A DNA stretch of 64,000 bases from NCBI RefSeq assembly GCF_003369835.1, contig NZ_QPMJ01000004.1:62001-126000 (forward strand). Reading direction: 5' to 3'. This document shows positions 18,810 through 64,000 of the stretch, piece after piece (position 1 is the first letter of the stretch; each line of letters begins with the position of its first letter). The notes under the pieces are model-generated. The model was not told the DNA's origin. It was given only the letters and a program-made list of their open reading frames with translations, and made no database searches. The translations under genes were made by a program, and so were the position numbers. This stretch comes from Halorussus rarus (GTDB taxonomy: Archaea > Halobacteriota > Halobacteria > Halobacteriales > Haladaptataceae).

Positions 18810-19526
18810 CTACGTCTCGTCCTTCTGGACGGTCTCCTCGCCGATGAACCGGGGGCGCTCGTCGATGGCGAGGAAGTTGTCGACGTCCCGGCGGGCCTCT
18901 CTGGCTTTGCCCTTCTCGGGGTCGTAGTCGCGTGAGCCCTCGCTACCGAGGGCGTCGTGGAGCTTGTCGAGGTCCTCGAAGTAGAGTTCGGCGACGCCGT
19001 CGAATTCGGCGTGCTCGGGGTCCGTGGGCAGGACGGTGTTGTACTTCACGACGCCCTCGATCTCGCGGGCGATGGGGGTGTGCTCGTTCTGCCAGTGGTC
19101 GACGAACTCCTCGTGAGTCATCCCTTCCTTGCGGACGAGGAACGCCGAGTGCTTGTAGAGACCGTCGGTGTCGCCGTCGACCTCGTCCTTCTGGACGGTC
19201 TCCTCGCCGATGAACCGGGGACGCTCGTCGATGGCGAGGAAGTTGTCGACGTCCCGGCGGGCTTCTCTGGCTTTGCCCTTGTCGGGGTCGTAGTCGCGTG
19301 AGCCCTCGCTGCCGAGGGCGTCGTGGAGCTTGTCGATGTCCTCGAAGTAGAGCTCGGCGACGCCGTCGAACTCGGCGTGCTCGGGGTCGGTCGGGAGGAC
19401 GGTCTGATAGCGCGTGACGCCCTCGATCTCGCGGGCGATGGGGGTGTGCTCGTTCTGCCAGTGGTCGACGAACTCCTCGTGGGTCATCCCCTCCTTCCGC
19501 ACGAGCAGGGCGACGTGCTTGTACAT
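18810..19526 (-). CDS. tandemly duplicated EthD-like ferredoxin-fold protein
   Basis: 238 residues made of two almost identical halves of 122 residues, each beginning (M/L)YKH and holding LVRKEGMTHEEFVDHWQNEH, the hallmark of EthD-like dimeric alpha-beta barrel proteins. Single-domain members normally dimerise, so this protein would form the pseudo-dimer within one chain. The ATG at 19526 is chosen over 19553 because a TATA-like element (TTTTATG on the minus strand, 19551-19557) lies 28 nt upstream, which fits a leaderless transcript. Family members act in degradation of ethers or other organics, often without a defined reaction. The substrate is unknown. Confidence 0.88.
   Translation of the reverse strand: MYKHVALLVRKEGMTHEEFVDHWQNEHTPIAREIEGVTRYQTVLPTDPEHAEFDGVAELYFEDIDKLHDALGSEGSRDYDPDKGKAREARRDVDNFLAIDERPRFIGEETVQKDEVDGDTDGLYKHSAFLVRKEGMTHEEFVDHWQNEHTPIAREIEGVVKYNTVLPTDPEHAEFDGVAELYFEDLDKLHDALGSEGSRDYDPEKGKAREARRDVDNFLAIDERPRFIGEETVQKDET
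18810..19526. repeat. 366-bp direct duplication within the EthD-like gene
   Basis: The unit containing GATGAACCGGGG occurs at 18843 and again at 19209, a period of 366 bp (122 codons). Most differences are scattered third-position changes, so the nucleotide match is high across the whole unit. The duplication is therefore much younger than the family. Confidence 0.9.
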
Positions 19527-53995: not shown

Positions 53996-56749
53996 TCACT
54001 CCCCGACGAGACGTGCAAGTCCGACCCGGGCCGCCAGCGCGAGGACGACGAACGCGCCGAAGCCCGCGGCGAGCCACGTCCACTCGGTCGCGCCGAGCGC
54101 GACCACGCCGAAGGGACTCCGGAGCGGCGTGTACAGCACCGCCAGCTGGAGCGCGAACGTGACCCCGACCGCCGCCAGCAGCCACGGGTTCGAGCCGACC
54201 GACAGACCGTAGCGCGACCGAATGAGCTGGATGCGGACCAGCTCGATGACCACCAGGAACGTGAAGAGCACGGTCTGGGCCGCTACCAGCGCGGTGCGGT
54301 CGAGGGCGTAGAAGAAGACCGCCAGTCCCGCGACCGCCATCAGGACCGCGATGGTGCCGACCGACGCCAGCACGCGCCGGTTCACGACGCGCTCGCCGGG
54401 GTCCCGCGGCGGCCGGTCCATCACGTCGTCGGCCTTCGGGTCGGCACCGAGCGCGAGCGCGGGCAGCCCGTCGGTGACCAGGTTGACCCACAGCAGCATC
54501 ACCGGGGTGAGCACCACCGCCTCCCTGCCGGCGAACGCCTCGGGGAAGAGCGCGGCGCCGACCAGCGCGCCGAAGAACACCACCAGGACCTCGCCCGCGT
54601 TGGCCGACAGCAGGTAGTTGACGAACTTCCGGACGTTGTCGAAGACGCCCCGGCCCTCGGCCACCGCGTCCCGGATGGTGGCGAAGTTGTCGTCACGGAG
54701 CACCACGTCGGCGGCGGTCCGGGCCACGTCGGTCCCTCGTCGGCCCATCGCGATCCCCACGTCGGCCCGCTTGAGCGCGGGGGCGTCGTTCACGCCGTCG
54801 CCGGTCATCGCCACCGCGTGGTCGCGCTCCTGGAGCGCCCGGAGGATGGCGACCTTGTGGGCCGGAGAGACCCGGGCGAACACCTCCACGTCCTCCACGC
54901 ACTCGGCCAGTTCGTCGTCCGAGAGCGCCTCGATCTCCGGCCCGGTCAGCGCCCCCTCGGGGTCGAAGCCCAGTTCGGCGCCGATGGCCTTCGCCGTCTC
55001 GACGTTGTCGCCGGTCGCCATCACGGTCCGGATGCCCGCCCGCCGGCAGTCGGCGACGGCGTCGGCCACCTCGGGTCTCGGCGGGTCCATCAGCCCCTGG
55101 AGACCCACGAACGTGAGGTCGCTCTCCAGTTCGTCGTCGCCGGCCTCGGGGTCGACGCCGTTCTTGCGAGCGAACGCCAGCACCCGCAGCGCGTCGGCGG
55201 CGAAGTCCCCGGTCACCGCCAGGATCTCGGCCCGGCGCTCGTCGGTGAGTGCGACCGCCCGCCCGTCGGCCAGCTCGCTCTCGCACCGGTCGAGAATCAC
55301 CTCGGGCGCGCCCTTGACGTACGCGGTCGGGCCGGATTCCGGGATGGCGTTTTCGCTTCCGCGGCCGTTTTCGTTTTCGTATTTATGTCCGTTTGCGTAT
55401 TCGTTTGCGTATGCGTTTACATCATTGTCGTCGGCCGGCGCGACCACGGTCATGCGCTTTCGCTCCGACGAGAACGGGACCTCGCGGAGTCGCTCGACGG
55501 ACTCCGCGACGCCGGCCTCCTCGGCTGCCCGGAGGAGCGCCACCTCGGTCGGGTCGCCCCGATAGCCGTCCGGGCCGCGCTCGGCGTCGTTGCAGACCGC
55601 GCCGGTCCTGAGCAGCGCGGCGAGCGCGGGCGGCGTCGGCCCGTCGGCGCGAGTCTCCGCGGCGGCCCGTTCACCGGTGGGCAGTTCGACGACCTCGCCG
55701 CCGGCGTAGGCCCGCCGGACAGTCATCTCGTTCTCGGTCAGCGTCCCGGTCTTGTCGGTGACGATAACGTCGACCGAGCCGAGGCTCTCGACCACCGGGA
55801 GCCGCCGGACCAGCGCGTTCCGCCGGAGGAGCCGGCGCGACCCGAGCGCCAGCGTGAGCGTGACCACCGCGGGCAGCCCCTCCGGCACCGCGGCCACCGC
55901 CAGCGTCACCGCGACCAGCAGGACCGCGACGGGCGACGACCCCGCGACCAGCAACTGCACCGCGGCGACGAACCCGATGATTCCGAGCGTCAGGCCCGCG
56001 ATGCGCCGGCCGAGCGCGTCGACCTCCTCCTGGAACGGCGTCGGCTGCTCTTCGGTCGACCCGAGCTGCTCGGCGATGGCGCCGACCTCGGTGTCCATCC
56101 CGGTCGCCACCGCGACCGCGGTCCCCCGTCCCTGGACCGCGTGGGTGTTCGTGAAGACCATCCCCTCCCGGTCGGCCGGCGGTGCGTCGGGGGCGACGGC
56201 ATCCGTCGTCTTCTCGACGCTCGCGCTCTCGCCGGTCAGCGCCGACTCGTCGGCGGCGAGCCGCTGGGCGTCGACCAGTCGCCCGTCGGCGGGGATCACG
56301 TCGCCCTGCGCGACGAAGAACACGTCGCCGGGCACCACCTCGCGGGCGTCGACCGTCCGCTTCTCGCCGTCCCGGAGCACGGTCGCGTCCGGCGTCGACA
56401 GCGACCGGAGCGCCTGGATCGACCGCTCGGTCCGGTAGTCCTGGACGAAGCCGAACAGCCCGTTGGCCAGCAGGATGGCGGCGATGAGCCCGGCCTCGGC
56501 GTACTCGGGCGTCTGGCCCGGCAGGAACCCCACGCCGAGCGACAGCGCCGCCGCCACCACGAGCAGGTAGGTCAGCCAGTTCCGGAACTGATCGGCGAAC
56601 AGGCCCGCGAGCGAGACTCCGTCCCGGTCGCGGATCTCGTTCGGTCCGTACTCCGCGAGGCGTCGCTCGGCCTCGTCGGCGCTCAGCCCCGTCTCGTCGG
56701 CGTCGAGTTCGTCGTACACCTCGCTCGGCGGCGCTGCGTGCCAGTCCAT
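53996..56749 (-). CDS. P-type cation-transporting ATPase, calcium type (SERCA/PMR1-like)
   Basis: 917 residues from the ATG at 56749. Cation-ATPase N-domain at the start, A-domain with LTGES, the phosphorylation motif DKTGT with Asp332 (332-336), N-domain KGAPE, P-domain TGDGVNDAP, and transmembrane motifs VPEGLPA in M4 and NLVTDGLPALALG in M6, typical of Ca-ATPases. A 28-residue low-complexity insert rich in Asn, Tyr, Ala and Glu (about 440-468) lies in the N-domain and is encoded by a CGNAAA hexamer array. The insert is in frame and the rest of the protein is intact. Likely exports Ca or Mn together with the CaCA exchanger. Confidence 0.94.
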   Translation of the reverse strand: MDWHAAPPSEVYDELDADETGLSADEAERRLAEYGPNEIRDRDGVSLAGLFADQFRNWLTYLLVVAAALSLGVGFLPGQTPEYAEAGLIAAILLANGLFGFVQDYRTERSIQALRSLSTPDATVLRDGEKRTVDAREVVPGDVFFVAQGDVIPADGRLVDAQRLAADESALTGESASVEKTTDAVAPDAPPADREGMVFTNTHAVQGRGTAVAVATGMDTEVGAIAEQLGSTEEQPTPFQEEVDALGRRIAGLTLGIIGFVAAVQLLVAGSSPVAVLLVAVTLAVAAVPEGLPAVVTLTLALGSRRLLRRNALVRRLPVVESLGSVDVIVTDKTGTLTENEMTVRRAYAGGEVVELPTGERAAAETRADGPTPPALAALLRTGAVCNDAERGPDGYRGDPTEVALLRAAEEAGVAESVERLREVPFSSERKRMTVVAPADDNDVNAYANEYANGHKYENENGRGSENAIPESGPTAYVKGAPEVILDRCESELADGRAVALTDERRAEILAVTGDFAADALRVLAFARKNGVDPEAGDDELESDLTFVGLQGLMDPPRPEVADAVADCRRAGIRTVMATGDNVETAKAIGAELGFDPEGALTGPEIEALSDDELAECVEDVEVFARVSPAHKVAILRALQERDHAVAMTGDGVNDAPALKRADVGIAMGRRGTDVARTAADVVLRDDNFATIRDAVAEGRGVFDNVRKFVNYLLSANAGEVLVVFFGALVGAALFPEAFAGREAVVLTPVMLLWVNLVTDGLPALALGADPKADDVMDRPPRDPGERVVNRRVLASVGTIAVLMAVAGLAVFFYALDRTALVAAQTVLFTFLVVIELVRIQLIRSRYGLSVGSNPWLLAAVGVTFALQLAVLYTPLRSPFGVVALGATEWTWLAAGFGAFVVLALAARVGLARLVGE
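55348..55419. repeat. hexamer array A inside the P-type ATPase gene
   Basis: Twelve hexamers in unbroken register, eleven beginning with CG on the + strand (CGTTTT, CGCTTC, CGTATT, CGTTTG and similar). On the coding strand they read AAC-GNN and TAC-GNN, giving Asn/Tyr followed by Ala, Glu or Gly. This is the longest array in the window. Confidence 0.9.
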
Positions 56750-57134: not shown

Positions 57135-57182
57135 CGTTTGCGGTCACGTTTCCGATTTCGAAAACGATTACAGAACCGGGGC
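57135..57182. repeat. hexamer array B
   Basis: Eight hexamer positions, seven starting with CG (CGTTTG, CGGTCA, CGTTTC, CGATTT, CGAAAA, CGATTA, then CAGAAC and CGGGGC). Polarity flips in the middle from CGTTT to AAACG, around the 8-bp palindrome TTTCGAAA (57156-57163). It lies in the 290-bp gap between the 83-residue gene and the DUF192 gene; nothing else is recognisable there. Confidence 0.85.
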
Positions 57183-58482: not shown

Positions 58483-58523
58483 GTTTACGTAAACGCAAAC
58501 GTTACTCCAAACGCAATCGCAAA
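58483..58523. repeat. hexamer array C upstream of the ParA-like gene
   Basis: Starts with the perfect 12-bp palindrome GTTTACGTAAAC (58483-58494) and continues CGCAAA, CGTTAC, TCCAAA, CGCAAT, CGCAAA. Five CGs keep the 6-nt register and one position is TC. It lies in the divergent promoter region between the DUF456 and ParA-like genes. Confidence 0.85.
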
Positions 58524-58553
58524 TGTTGTTTCCGATACACGTGTCTGACGAAG

Positions 58554-58560
58554 GATTAAA
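58554..58560 (+). promoter_or_regulatory. TATA-like element of the ParA-like operon
   Basis: GATTAAA centred 33 nt before the ATG at 58590. The predicted start of transcription falls inside the following 22-bp palindrome, so a protein bound there would block initiation. Confidence 0.55.
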
Positions 58561-58567
58561 TGGGTCG

Positions 58568-58589
58568 TTTGCGTTTGCGCAAACGCAAA
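58568..58589. promoter_or_regulatory. 22-bp perfect palindrome at the ParA-like start codon
   Basis: TTTGCGTTTGCGCAAACGCAAA equals its own reverse complement and ends exactly at the base before the ATG. It is made of two hexamer units in each orientation, with CGs at 58566, 58572, 58578 and 58584, in register with array C. A natural candidate for an autoregulatory operator. Confidence 0.75.
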
Positions 58590-59480
58590 ATGGCACGCTC
58601 CATCCGGGCCTGTACCTTCCTCGACAAGGGCGGTACGGGCAAGACGACCACGGCGGCCCACCTCGGGGTCGCGCTGGCCGAGCAGGGCAACGACGTGCTG
58701 CTCATCGACCTCGCGGGCAAGCAGGGCGACCTCGTCAAGCACTTCGGCCGGTGGGAGACCGTCGAGCGCCAGATCGCCGAGGACGACGACTGGCCCAACA
58801 TCTCCACGGTGTTCCAGGACCAGTGGGGCGCAATCGCCGAGAAGCTTGGCGAGGCCGCGGTCGAGGGGCTCATCCTCGAGACCGACGAGGGCGTCGACCT
58901 GATTCCGGCCCACCCGGGCCTCGACGGCCTCGACGCCGAACTGGGCAACATCGACGACGCCCAGGACCGCTACTCCCGGCTCGACGCGTTCCTCGACGAG
59001 TACATCGAACCGCTGGGCTACGACGCCGTCCTCATCGACCTGCCGGGGCTGACCAACAACGTCAGCTACAACGGCCTCTGGGCCGCCCGGAACGTCATCG
59101 CGCCGGTCGAGATGGGCCCGTTCGAGTCCGAGCAGGCCGAGGCGCTCCGCGCGGACCTCGACAAGATCGGGGCCAACTTCGACGTGGACGTCCGCCTCTC
59201 CATGGTGCTGCCGAACAAGGTCGACACCCGGACGAAGCTCGCCGAGGAGTACCTCGCCGACTTCGAGGCGGCCTACCCCGAGGCCTTCGTCGCCTCCCAC
59301 GTCCCGGTGAGCCAGGACATCCGGAACGCGGCCGAGTCGGGCCGGACCGCGTTCGCGCTCGAGGAGCCCTCGACGACTGCCCGGCGTGCACGCGAAGCGT
59401 TCCTCGACATCGCCGAGACGCTGACCGAGCGACTGGAGCGCGCCGAGCCCCGCGCGGCCGCCGGAGGTGAGACCGCGTGA
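58590..59480 (+). CDS. ParA/Soj-family partition-type ATPase
   Basis: 296 residues from the ATG at 58590. The deviant Walker A is KGGTGKTT (13-20), the A-prime motif is LLIDLAGKQGDL with Asp40, and Walker B is AVLIDLPGLTNN. The order and spacing match ParA/Soj/MinD-like ATPases that bind DNA as ATP dimers. An in-frame ATG ten codons earlier would add RLRLRKRK encoded by the palindrome and overlap the TATA element, so it is rejected. It overlaps the next small gene by 4 bases (GTGA). Probably segregates or positions DNA or a protein array; chromosomal Soj-like regulators are the alternative. Confidence 0.92.
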   Translation: MARSIRACTFLDKGGTGKTTTAAHLGVALAEQGNDVLLIDLAGKQGDLVKHFGRWETVERQIAEDDDWPNISTVFQDQWGAIAEKLGEAAVEGLILETDEGVDLIPAHPGLDGLDAELGNIDDAQDRYSRLDAFLDEYIEPLGYDAVLIDLPGLTNNVSYNGLWAARNVIAPVEMGPFESEQAEALRADLDKIGANFDVDVRLSMVLPNKVDTRTKLAEEYLADFEAAYPEAFVASHVPVSQDIRNAAESGRTAFALEEPSTTARRAREAFLDIAETLTERLERAEPRAAAGGETA

Positions 59481-59869
59481 GCGACCCGGATCTCGAGGAG
59501 CTCCGCCAGCAGACCCAGCGCACCGACCGACTCGCGGAGTCGGCCGCCGGCGACGACGGGACCGACGACCTGGTCGAGGACCTGGTCGACGCCCTGACCG
59601 CCATCGACGAGGGCGACCAGGCCAAGACGTTCGCGGCACGCGACGAGTCGGTGACCGCGCTCCTCACTACCCTGGCCGACCGCGAGGAGGACCTCGAGGC
59701 GGTCGGCACCTCCCTCCAGGGCGCGCTGGGCCGGGACGTCGACCGCGACGCGCTCGACCGCAGCGAGATCGTCCGGCTCGCGGTCCGGCTCGGTCTCAGG
59801 GAGGCCGCGCCGGAGTACCTCGACCTGCTCGCCGACGCGTCGGCCGAGCACGCCCGTCGGAACTTCTGA
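59477..59869 (+). CDS. small partner protein of the ParA-like ATPase
   Basis: 130 residues from the GTG at 59477. Strongly acidic and helical, with LVEDLVDALTAIDEGDQAKTFAARDESVTALLTTL in the middle and a possible helix-turn-helix at SEIVRLAVRLGLREAAPEYLDLL. It has no ParB nuclease-like motif. Translational coupling to the ATPase and the nearby arrays suggest it is the site-binding adaptor, but DNA binding is not shown by the sequence. Array D begins 5 bases after its stop. Confidence 0.8.
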   Translation: MSDPDLEELRQQTQRTDRLAESAAGDDGTDDLVEDLVDALTAIDEGDQAKTFAARDESVTALLTTLADREEDLEAVGTSLQGALGRDVDRDALDRSEIVRLAVRLGLREAAPEYLDLLADASAEHARRNF

Positions 59870-59873
59870 GGGC

Positions 59874-59966
59874 CGTTTCCGGGTTCGTCTTTCGCATCCG
59901 TTCTCCGATTTGCATCCGTGTCCGGTTCCGTTTGCGTTTTCGAAAACGCTCACGCACACGTTATCG
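59874..59966. repeat. hexamer array D, downstream of the ParA/partner operon
   Basis: A degenerate left part (59874-59916) has CG spacings of 6, 7 and 11. The right part has nine CGs at exact 6-nt spacing (59917, 59923, 59929, 59935, 59941, 59947, 59953, 59959, 59965). The centre is the perfect 12-bp palindrome GTTTTCGAAAAC (59936-59947), where polarity turns from CGTTT to AAACG. Confidence 0.9.
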
Positions 59967-60076
59967 CTAGTCGATAGTCATTGGGTTGCCCGTCATCGAC
60001 GACGGTTCGTTTTCCATCTCCGGACCGATGGAACCCTTCTGTCGGACCCGAACGTCGGACCGCGAAGACCTCTATG

Positions 60077-60118
60077 CGAAAACGTATTCGTTAACGTAAT
60101 CGTAAATTCCTTCGTAAC
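60077..60118. repeat. hexamer array E
   Basis: CGAAAA, CGTATT, CGTTAA, CGTAAT, CGTAAA, one degenerate unit TTCCTT, CGTAAC. Six of seven positions keep CG. The centre has CGTTAACG, an 8-bp palindrome. Confidence 0.85.
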
Positions 60119-60192
60119 GGCAACCCCAGTCCTCGAGAGAAACGACGCGGTCCCGAAGGGCCGAGACTCGAACCGTATTCGAACCGATCTGG

Positions 60193-60246
60193 CGGAAACG
60201 CAAACGTAAACGAACACGAAAACGATACCGGAAACGAAACCGGGGC
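60193..60246. repeat. hexamer array F
   Basis: Nine CGs at exact 6-nt spacing from 60193 to 60241: CGGAAA, CGCAAA, CGTAAA, CGAACA, CGAAAA, CGATAC, CGGAAA, CGAAAC, CGGGGC. All in one orientation, the cleanest unidirectional array of the set. Confidence 0.9.
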
Positions 60247-62739: not shown

Positions 62740-62793
62740 CGTTTTCGTTTACGTTTACGCTTCCGTTTCCGAAATCGTGTTCGAAGGCGCATC
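62740..62793. repeat. hexamer array G
   Basis: Nine CGs at exact spacing from 62740 to 62788: CGTTTT, CGTTTA, CGTTTA, CGCTTC, CGTTTC, then the polarity change to CGAAAT, CGTGTT, CGAAGG, CGCATC. It lies between the MCM-like gene and the FAD oxidase, 87 bases before the start codon of the latter. Confidence 0.9.
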
Positions 62794-62879: not shown

Positions 62880-64000
62880 ATGTCATCTCCCCCCGCGGAC
62901 GGGTCCGACTTCGAGAGCTACCGGGAGACGGTCGGCGTCGACGCGCCAGACGACGCGGCCCACGCCGACCTCGCCGGGGACCTCCGGTCGGCCTGCGACG
63001 GCGATGTCCGGTTCGACGAGTACACGCAGATCCTGTACGCGACCGACGGGAGCATCTACCAGGCCCGACCGGCGGGCGTCGTCTTCCCGACCGATACGGC
63101 CGATGTCCAGGCCGCGATGCGGGTGGCGGCCGACCACGACGCGACGGTCCTGCCCCGCGGCGCAGGCTCGTCGCTGGCGGGTCAGGCCGTCGGCTCCGGG
63201 TGCGTCGTGCTCGACTTCACCCGGCACATGGACGCGATTCTCGAGGTGGACGCCGACGCCAAGCGAGCGACGGTCCGCCCCGGCGTCGTCCAGGACCACC
63301 TCGACGCCCGGCTCGCCGAGGACGGCCTGAAGTTCGCGCCCGACCCGGCGTCGTCGAACCGGGCGACCGTCGGCGGCGGCATCGGCAACAACTCGACCGG
63401 CGCCCACTCGGTCCGGTACGGTATCACCGACGCGTACGTCGAGGAGTGCGAGGCGGTGCTGGCCGACGGGACGACGATTCGCGCACGCGAGGTCGAGCTC
63501 GACGGGCCCGAGTGGGACGAGATCGTGTCGGGCGACGACCGCGAGGCCGACCTCTACCGGACCGTCCGCGGCCTGGTCGAGGACAACGCCGACGAGATCG
63601 AGCGCCGGTATCCCGAGCTCAAGCGGTCGGTGTCGGGGTACAACCTCCACAAGTGCGTGTACGTAAACGAAAACGGAAACGAATGCGTAAACATCGCCAA
63701 GCTGCTGGTCGGCGCCGAGGGGACGCTGGGCGTCGTGACCGAAGCGACCCTCTCGCTGGTGTCGAAGCCCGACGAGACCGCCCTGGCGCTGTACTGCTTC
63801 GAGGACCTGTTGTCGGCGATGGAGGCCGTCCCGGTCGCGCTCGACTTCGATCCGAGCGCGGTCGAACTGATGGACGACGAGGTGTTCCGGCTCGCCCGGG
63901 AGTCGACCGAGTACGCCGAGTACGCCGAACCCATCCCCGACGAGGCGGCGGCCGCCCTGATGCTGGAGTTCGACTCGGAGGTCCGCGACGACCTCGAAGG
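62880..64000 (+). CDS. GlcD-type FAD-linked oxidase, N-terminal part (runs off the window)
   Basis: At least 373 residues, continuing past the end. The PCMH FAD-binding domain is clear: GVVFPTDTADVQAAMRVAADH, TVLPRGAGSSLAGQAVG and PASSNRATVGGGIGNNSTGA. LLVGAEGTLGVVTEATL starts the catalytic oxidase domain. Family members oxidise D-lactate or glycolate; long haloarchaeal forms add an Fe-S domain at the C-terminus, not visible here. Residues about 260-271 (YVNENGNECVN) are encoded by hexamer array H in frame. TTTATG about 30 nt upstream is the likely promoter. Confidence 0.9.
   Translation, partial: MSSPPADGSDFESYRETVGVDAPDDAAHADLAGDLRSACDGDVRFDEYTQILYATDGSIYQARPAGVVFPTDTADVQAAMRVAADHDATVLPRGAGSSLAGQAVGSGCVVLDFTRHMDAILEVDADAKRATVRPGVVQDHLDARLAEDGLKFAPDPASSNRATVGGGIGNNSTGAHSVRYGITDAYVEECEAVLADGTTIRAREVELDGPEWDEIVSGDDREADLYRTVRGLVEDNADEIERRYPELKRSVSGYNLHKCVYVNENGNECVNIAKLLVGAEGTLGVVTEATLSLVSKPDETALALYCFEDLLSAMEAVPVALDFDPSAVELMDDEVFRLARESTEYAEYAEPIPDEAAAALMLEFDSEVRDDLE
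63656..63691. repeat. hexamer array H inside the FAD oxidase gene
   Basis: Six CGs at exact 6-nt spacing: CGTGTA, CGTAAA, CGAAAA, CGGAAA, CGAATG, CGTAAA. Read in the gene frame it gives GTA-AAC-GAA-AAC-GGA-AAC, the same codon phase (AAC-GNN) as array A in the P-ATPase. Confidence 0.88.

Follow-up and report, generated by a model that had tools for sequence, protein, structure and literature searches.

A candidate ParA-based partition locus with a small unclassified adaptor and tandem hexamer arrays on a Halorussus megaplasmid

A ParA-type ATPase gene of Halorussus rarus and the small gene overlapping it, together with the clusters of 6-bp repeats around them, very probably serve a 395-kb haloarchaeal megaplasmid as its partition (centromere) locus, in which the small protein is a sequence-specific adaptor; binding, ATPase stimulation, repression and segregation are all inferred. 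The locus lies in a window of 64,000 nucleotides, the whole stretch of DNA that was analysed, whose numbering is used below unless a contig is named. This window sits in contig C4, which comprises 395,042 bp of a 4.37-Mb genome and encodes its own Orc1/Cdc6 (C4:45.7-46.8 kb). The relatives of C4 are complete plasmids of 300-560 kb from Halorussus aquaticus, limi, caseinilyticus, vallis, pelagicus and salilacus, and C4 is therefore inferred to be a megaplasmid.

An initial annotation had described a ParA/Soj ATPase gene overlapping the gene for a 130-residue partner without a ParB motif. Both genes are present, and they overlap by 4 bases:

58543 to 58561, plus strand: promoter box GTCTGACG followed by TATA-like GATTAAAT, upstream of parA; the box is kept across loci
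58590 to 59480, plus strand: parA, a ParA/Soj-type ATPase of 296 aa lacking an N-terminal HTH extension (Pfam, phmmer, alignment)
59477 to 59869, plus strand: partner of 130 aa, a candidate centromere-binding adaptor with no Pfam match, whose homologs lie directly 3' of parA (alignments)

The ATPase carries KGGTGKT, a Walker A motif of the deviant type, at residue 13 of 296, matches the Pfam families AAA_31 (E 3e-18), CbiA (E 4e-16) and MipZ, and finds its best phmmer matches in Thermus Soj (2bek/1wcv). KGGxGKT is invariant in an alignment of 20 relatives, and the ParAs of close relatives all open with M-x-R-S-I-R-A-C or nearly so. Because these relatives, as well as the annotated parA of H. 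aquaticus, begin at the homologous Met, the start is best set at 58590 and not at that of the longer open reading frame (58560). The partner begins at a GTG (59477) within the 4-base overlap with the parA stop and ends at 59869.

Upstream of parA, GTCTGAC is found in 45 of 66 loci, compared with an expectation of 1.7% per 130 bp, and GTCTGAC(G) may be a host-factor binding site or an unusual promoter element. It sits 3-5 bases 5' of a TATA-like TTTA, even in plasmids with wholly different arrays. The longer pattern GTCTGACGN5TTAA occurs three times in the H. rarus genome, at parA, C2:1042922 and C2:1155954, and the copy at C2:1042922 precedes a 48-residue RHH-like gene.

The partner has no match in Pfam and no meaningful one in NCBIfam, so the absence of a ParB motif noted earlier holds; the N-terminal CTPase/HTH domain of ParB was not found in either search, and the protein does not qualify as ParB/Spo0J. 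Alignments of relatives reveal an invariant N-terminal arginine (R18) and a C-terminal DRSEIVRLAVRLGL helix. AlphaFold models from 20 and then 52 sequences have a confident helical core (pLDDT 83 then 88), and in the model from 52 relatives an extended unpaired segment (residues 46-56) is followed by helices; the N-terminal region carrying R18 is of low confidence. Four database-match rows were left out of one of the input alignments for structure prediction, and the models, being monomeric, cannot show an inter-subunit ribbon. Foldseek returned no solved relative for either the 20- or the 52-sequence model, and the solved-structure matches of the partner profile included neither ParG nor, up to E 10, any SegB chain. 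Direct indications of an RHH protein are weak, consisting of an RHH_1 match (E 0.14) in a single member of the family and an hhalign probability of 24% between the partner profile and haloarchaeal RHH proteins (shuffles ≤0.7%). The strand-helix...DRSEIVRLAVRLGL pattern is RHH-like, and the RHH fold remains unconfirmed.

The repeats follow a single register in which CG recurs every 6 bp, spaced by NAAA or TTTN (AAACGN or its complement). Direct and inverted hexamers are combined in this register, the inversions reading CGTTTN-CG-NAAACG. No strand is assigned to the sites within the window, which are as follows:

55348 to 55418: hexamer array in the coding sequence of a P-type ATPase (53996-56749, minus strand)
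57135 to 57166: weaker hexamer array, intergenic (strict scan)
58485 to 58525: array C, hexamer repeats 5' of parA (sequence and motif scan)
58568 to 58589: 22-bp perfect hexamer palindrome TTTGCGTTTGC.GCAAACGCAAA (TTTGCGTTTGCGCAAACGCAAA) (sequence)
59874 to 59948: array D, with a core at 59917-59948 that has inverted hexamers (sequence and scans)
60077 to 60119: array E, CG-N4 hexamer register with AT-rich N4 (sequence; under the strict-scan threshold)
60193 to 60242: array F, eight hexamers (scans)
62740 to 62783: hexamer array 5' of a FAD-linked oxidase gene (scans)
63656 to 63687: hexamer array in the coding sequence of the FAD/Fe-S-linked oxidase (start about 62880, plus strand), encoding VYVNENGNECVN (scans)

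Four more array sites were located on C4 beyond the window by the strict scan. Array C and the 22-bp palindrome had been placed ahead of the operon by the initial annotation, with array D beginning five bases after the partner stop and E and F following; all are where it had put them, the first CGTTT of array D starting at 59874. It was also right that arrays flank the operon, but the interval it gave (58483-59967) is narrow: the arrays are not limited to the operon flanks, spanning about 10 kb and lying in part inside two coding genes. The palindrome lies 3' of the TATA-like box, abuts the parA ATG and is near-invariant in Halorussus (13 sister loci listed).

The window contains 10 copies of the hexamer doublet AAACGNAAACG, where 0.07 would be expected, and 20 of the triple hexamer with at most 2 mismatches, where 0.05 would be expected; shuffles never approached either count. 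With at most one mismatch, the H. rarus genome holds 12 triple-hexamer matches, all 12 on C4 and mostly less than 10 kb from the operon, and zero matches to a reversed control pattern. The strict scan identified 11 arrays on C4, of which seven cluster in 8.5 kb about the operon, and zero in 400 kb from C1 and C2, the two largest contigs seen. Chance low-complexity DNA as the source of the arrays is ruled out by the shuffles, the control pattern and the control contigs. Elsewhere in the window (18816-19505), a 366-bp unit is present in about 1.9 tandem copies with 93% identity.

Both in-gene arrays are in frame. The hexamer unit preserves the reading frame, and it is inferred that this may explain why it is tolerated in genes. 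In the P-type ATPase, the array corresponds to an Asn/Glu-rich insert that is length-polymorphic among the plasmids of relatives. In the oxidase, the VYVNENGNECVN codons hold the array in 11 of 11 orthologs from par plasmids (1-5 AAACG words each). Where the genome lacks this Halorussus system, homologs have 0-1 AAACG words, except for the ortholog in G016, a Halorussus species lacking the partner, which has a degenerate CG-N4 run with 2 such words. Beside the ParA/partner system the in-gene array of the oxidase is thus preserved, and homologs elsewhere almost entirely lack it.

Within Halorussus, the arrays, the operon and the replicon follow one presence/absence pattern. The 18 genomes together contain 43 exact triples. 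Of these, 40 share a contig with the partner, and three belong to two fragmented assemblies; 29 of the 40 are less than 15 kb from the operon (one plasmid being taken as circular). The three Halorussus species without the partner (G014, G015 and G016) have zero exact triples. G016 is a natural knock-out in which parA, partner and arrays have been lost jointly: the neighbouring genes (P-type ATPase, DUF456, DUF192, PadR, MCM-OB and oxidase) are still present on its 532-kb contig, and the syntenic 19.9-kb region contains no parA, no partner and no hexamer doublets. A different ParA (about 30% identical) is encoded elsewhere on the same contig.

Two Halorussus plasmids also have in common a distal five-hexamer array right after a stop codon (locus L180, G012:C2:380746; locus L181, G026:C4:353125). 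It is about 75-120 kb from the operon and is a possible secondary site.

Arrays that act as operators only, with the partner as an autorepressor or regulator of parA and its neighbours and with partition not its main role, would account for part of this anatomy. In nearly all loci the arrays overlap the parA promoter, from the TATA-like box to the ATG, and one array lies 5' of the oxidase gene. Such a restricted role is nevertheless improbable, given that several arrays are inside coding sequences or far from promoters and that arrays are limited to the operon's own replicon and lost along with the operon. Furthermore, operator and centromere roles are compatible, as the parS arrays of plasmid pSM19035 overlap promoters (PMC9499535).

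The assignment to a partition system can also be examined across the order. Partner homologs were detected in 61 of 243 Halobacteriales genomes, and partner genes are carried by 29 haloarchaeal PLSDB plasmids, those listed annotating them as 'hypothetical protein'; a scan of the collection with the partner gave three named loci only. A parA homolog is directly 5' of the partner in 69 of 69 loci examined. A few partner loci are on chromosome-sized contigs (e.g., G204, G236 and G177), a point against the plasmid-partition reading. Self-similarity of the operon flanks is enriched at lags of 6, 7, 12 and 13, with no enrichment at 4, 5, 8-11, 14 or 15. In most Halobacteriales operons, tandem arrays with a 6- or 12/13-bp unit occur where parA starts, past the partner stop or at both places. 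The initial annotation would have been contradicted by ParA/partner operons of relatives without arrays nearby; most loci display the opposite, and a few divergent or truncated ones (e.g., L081, L136, L139 and L157) have no recognisable array.

The sequence of the array differs by clade and includes AAACGN, ATACGN, CTATAG (12-13 bp period), GTATCTG (13 bp) and GTAACC (13 bp). On the partner tree, array class changes 6 times, compared with 25-36 times when labels are shuffled and with 26 changes of host family. Halorussus shares the AAACG class with Natrinema and with two genomes of another family, whereas Haladaptatus, from the same family as Halorussus, carries other arrays. On the basis of these counts and this distribution, the array follows the partner and not the host. 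Classes were counted crudely by 5- and 6-mers and the counts are approximate, since pooling ATATG k-mers with ATACG gave the ATACG label to some loci whose repeats are 13 bp. As a gene and its flanking DNA are passed on together and the tree rests on few columns, the pattern documents co-inheritance and does not prove binding.

Other secondary replicons bear different ParA types with acidic partners of their own (L182, C5:57000-63000; L216; L218; L221), and an AACGA-type repeat run precedes parA in L218. Several haloarchaeal partition types may therefore exist, possibly one per replicon.

Two further explanations fare poorly. ParA-family ATPases position many cargoes and the fold of the partner is unknown, so that the pair could be MinD/McdA-like and the arrays unrelated low-complexity DNA, but this is very unlikely in view of the co-distribution, the joint loss, the co-variation of motif and partner and the lack of triple arrays elsewhere in the H. 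rarus genome. Direct iterons are typical of replication origins and the replicon has its own Orc1/Cdc6, yet the idea that an initiator (Orc1/Cdc6 or Rep) binds the arrays as origin iterons is scarcely tenable and was rejected because orc1/cdc6 is 70 kb from the array cluster with no arrays adjoining; the array motif also tracks the partner over many plasmid types, and G016 keeps the syntenic plasmid region without arrays.

A partition-like system, as the initial annotation had proposed, is supported by the co-distribution, the joint loss and the co-variation of motif and partner, which together strongly imply that adaptor and arrays work together; there are no binding or segregation data. The locus meets the features of a type I (ParA-based) system, namely a deviant Walker ATPase, an adaptor gene in the same operon and a replicon-specific cluster of cis sites, with binding and plasmid stabilisation inferred. 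It also has two features of type Ib: ParA lacks the N-terminal HTH domain, and repeats 5' of parA (the palindrome and array C) are kept in relatives, with more arrays downstream. By analogy, the system resembles a type Ib partition system with a new adaptor family, for which RHH membership is unconfirmed and binding inferred.

The closest model is provided by pSM19035, in which dimers of the RHH-ParB omega coat contiguous 7-bp parS repeats, and arrays of at least 4 repeats activate ParA; the sites also overlap promoters (PMC9499535). The delta/omega pair and the Halorussus system both combine a small ParA and a small adaptor with contiguous short direct and inverted repeats, at multiple promoter-overlapping array sites per plasmid. 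In contrast, the Halorussus repeat is 6 bp (12/13 bp in other clades) and not 7 bp, the adaptor has no detectable similarity to a known one, parA and adaptor form a single overlapping operon, some arrays are inside coding genes, and the host is an archaeon. It is on this analogy that the partner is proposed to coat the arrays, repress parA and activate ParA. Partner dimers would bind the contiguous 6-bp repeats, direct and inverted, and could nucleate a partition complex across the array-rich region of about 10 kb. Repression of parA would result from occupation of the palindrome, which separates the TATA-like box from the ATG, and an N-terminal tail bearing the invariant arginine may stimulate the ParA ATPase. 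ParA-ATP on nucleoid DNA would then capture, move and release plasmid copies.

ParF-ParG of TP228, a type Ib system, likewise pairs a small ParA with a small adaptor, and ParG has a flexible N-terminal tail bearing an arginine. However, no sequence similarity is detectable between the partner and solved ParG, and the centromere repeats differ. SegAB, found in Sulfolobales and some Euryarchaeota (PMC5120986, PMC12284271), is comparable in its overlapping segA-segB operon, ParA ATPase, small archaea-specific adaptor and sites 5' of the operon. Unlike the Halorussus system with its tandem AAACGN arrays on a plasmid, SegAB is chromosomal and SegB sites are scattered imperfect palindromes (core AGAg/cTCT), and neither the partner's profile against solved structures nor Pfam places it in the SegB family. 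AspA-ParB-ParA of pNOB8 is also an archaeal plasmid partition system with a ParA, but it has three components and a 23-bp palindrome where Halorussus has two genes and tandem arrays (PMC5120986).

How haloarchaeal chromosomes and megaplasmids are segregated counts among the outstanding questions named in PMC5120986. From work on Haloferax it has been argued that random partitioning can suffice for new replicons and that eukaryote-type centromeres are absent from archaea (PMC6063281). No description of the ParA/partner pair or of haloarchaeal centromere arrays was found in the open-access papers searched, subscription papers being outside the search; the searchable papers likewise contain no account of the adaptor family, of an archaeal host for such a system, of arrays within genes or of array specificities that have diversified. 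That the presence of the pair tracks repeat clusters suggests that haloarchaea sort plasmid copies actively and not by chance. A broader proposal, tentative and rated at slightly less than even odds, is that haloarchaeal secondary replicons, for which random partitioning has been assumed, are actively segregated by an order-wide ParA family and a structurally new adaptor that assembles on a regional centromere. This centromere would extend over about 10 kb and consist of many short arrays, some within the codons of neighbouring genes, and adaptor and array would have co-diverged into mutually distinct specificities. The locus offers a defined candidate, with an ATPase, an adaptor and a recognisable cis array, and its relatives supply a natural series in which specificity has diverged as well as a natural case of loss. 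As partner genes occur on 29 PLSDB plasmids and carry the name 'hypothetical protein' in those listed, the result would annotate many plasmids; it would also throw light on plasmid compatibility and provide haloarchaeal vectors with a stabilising cassette.
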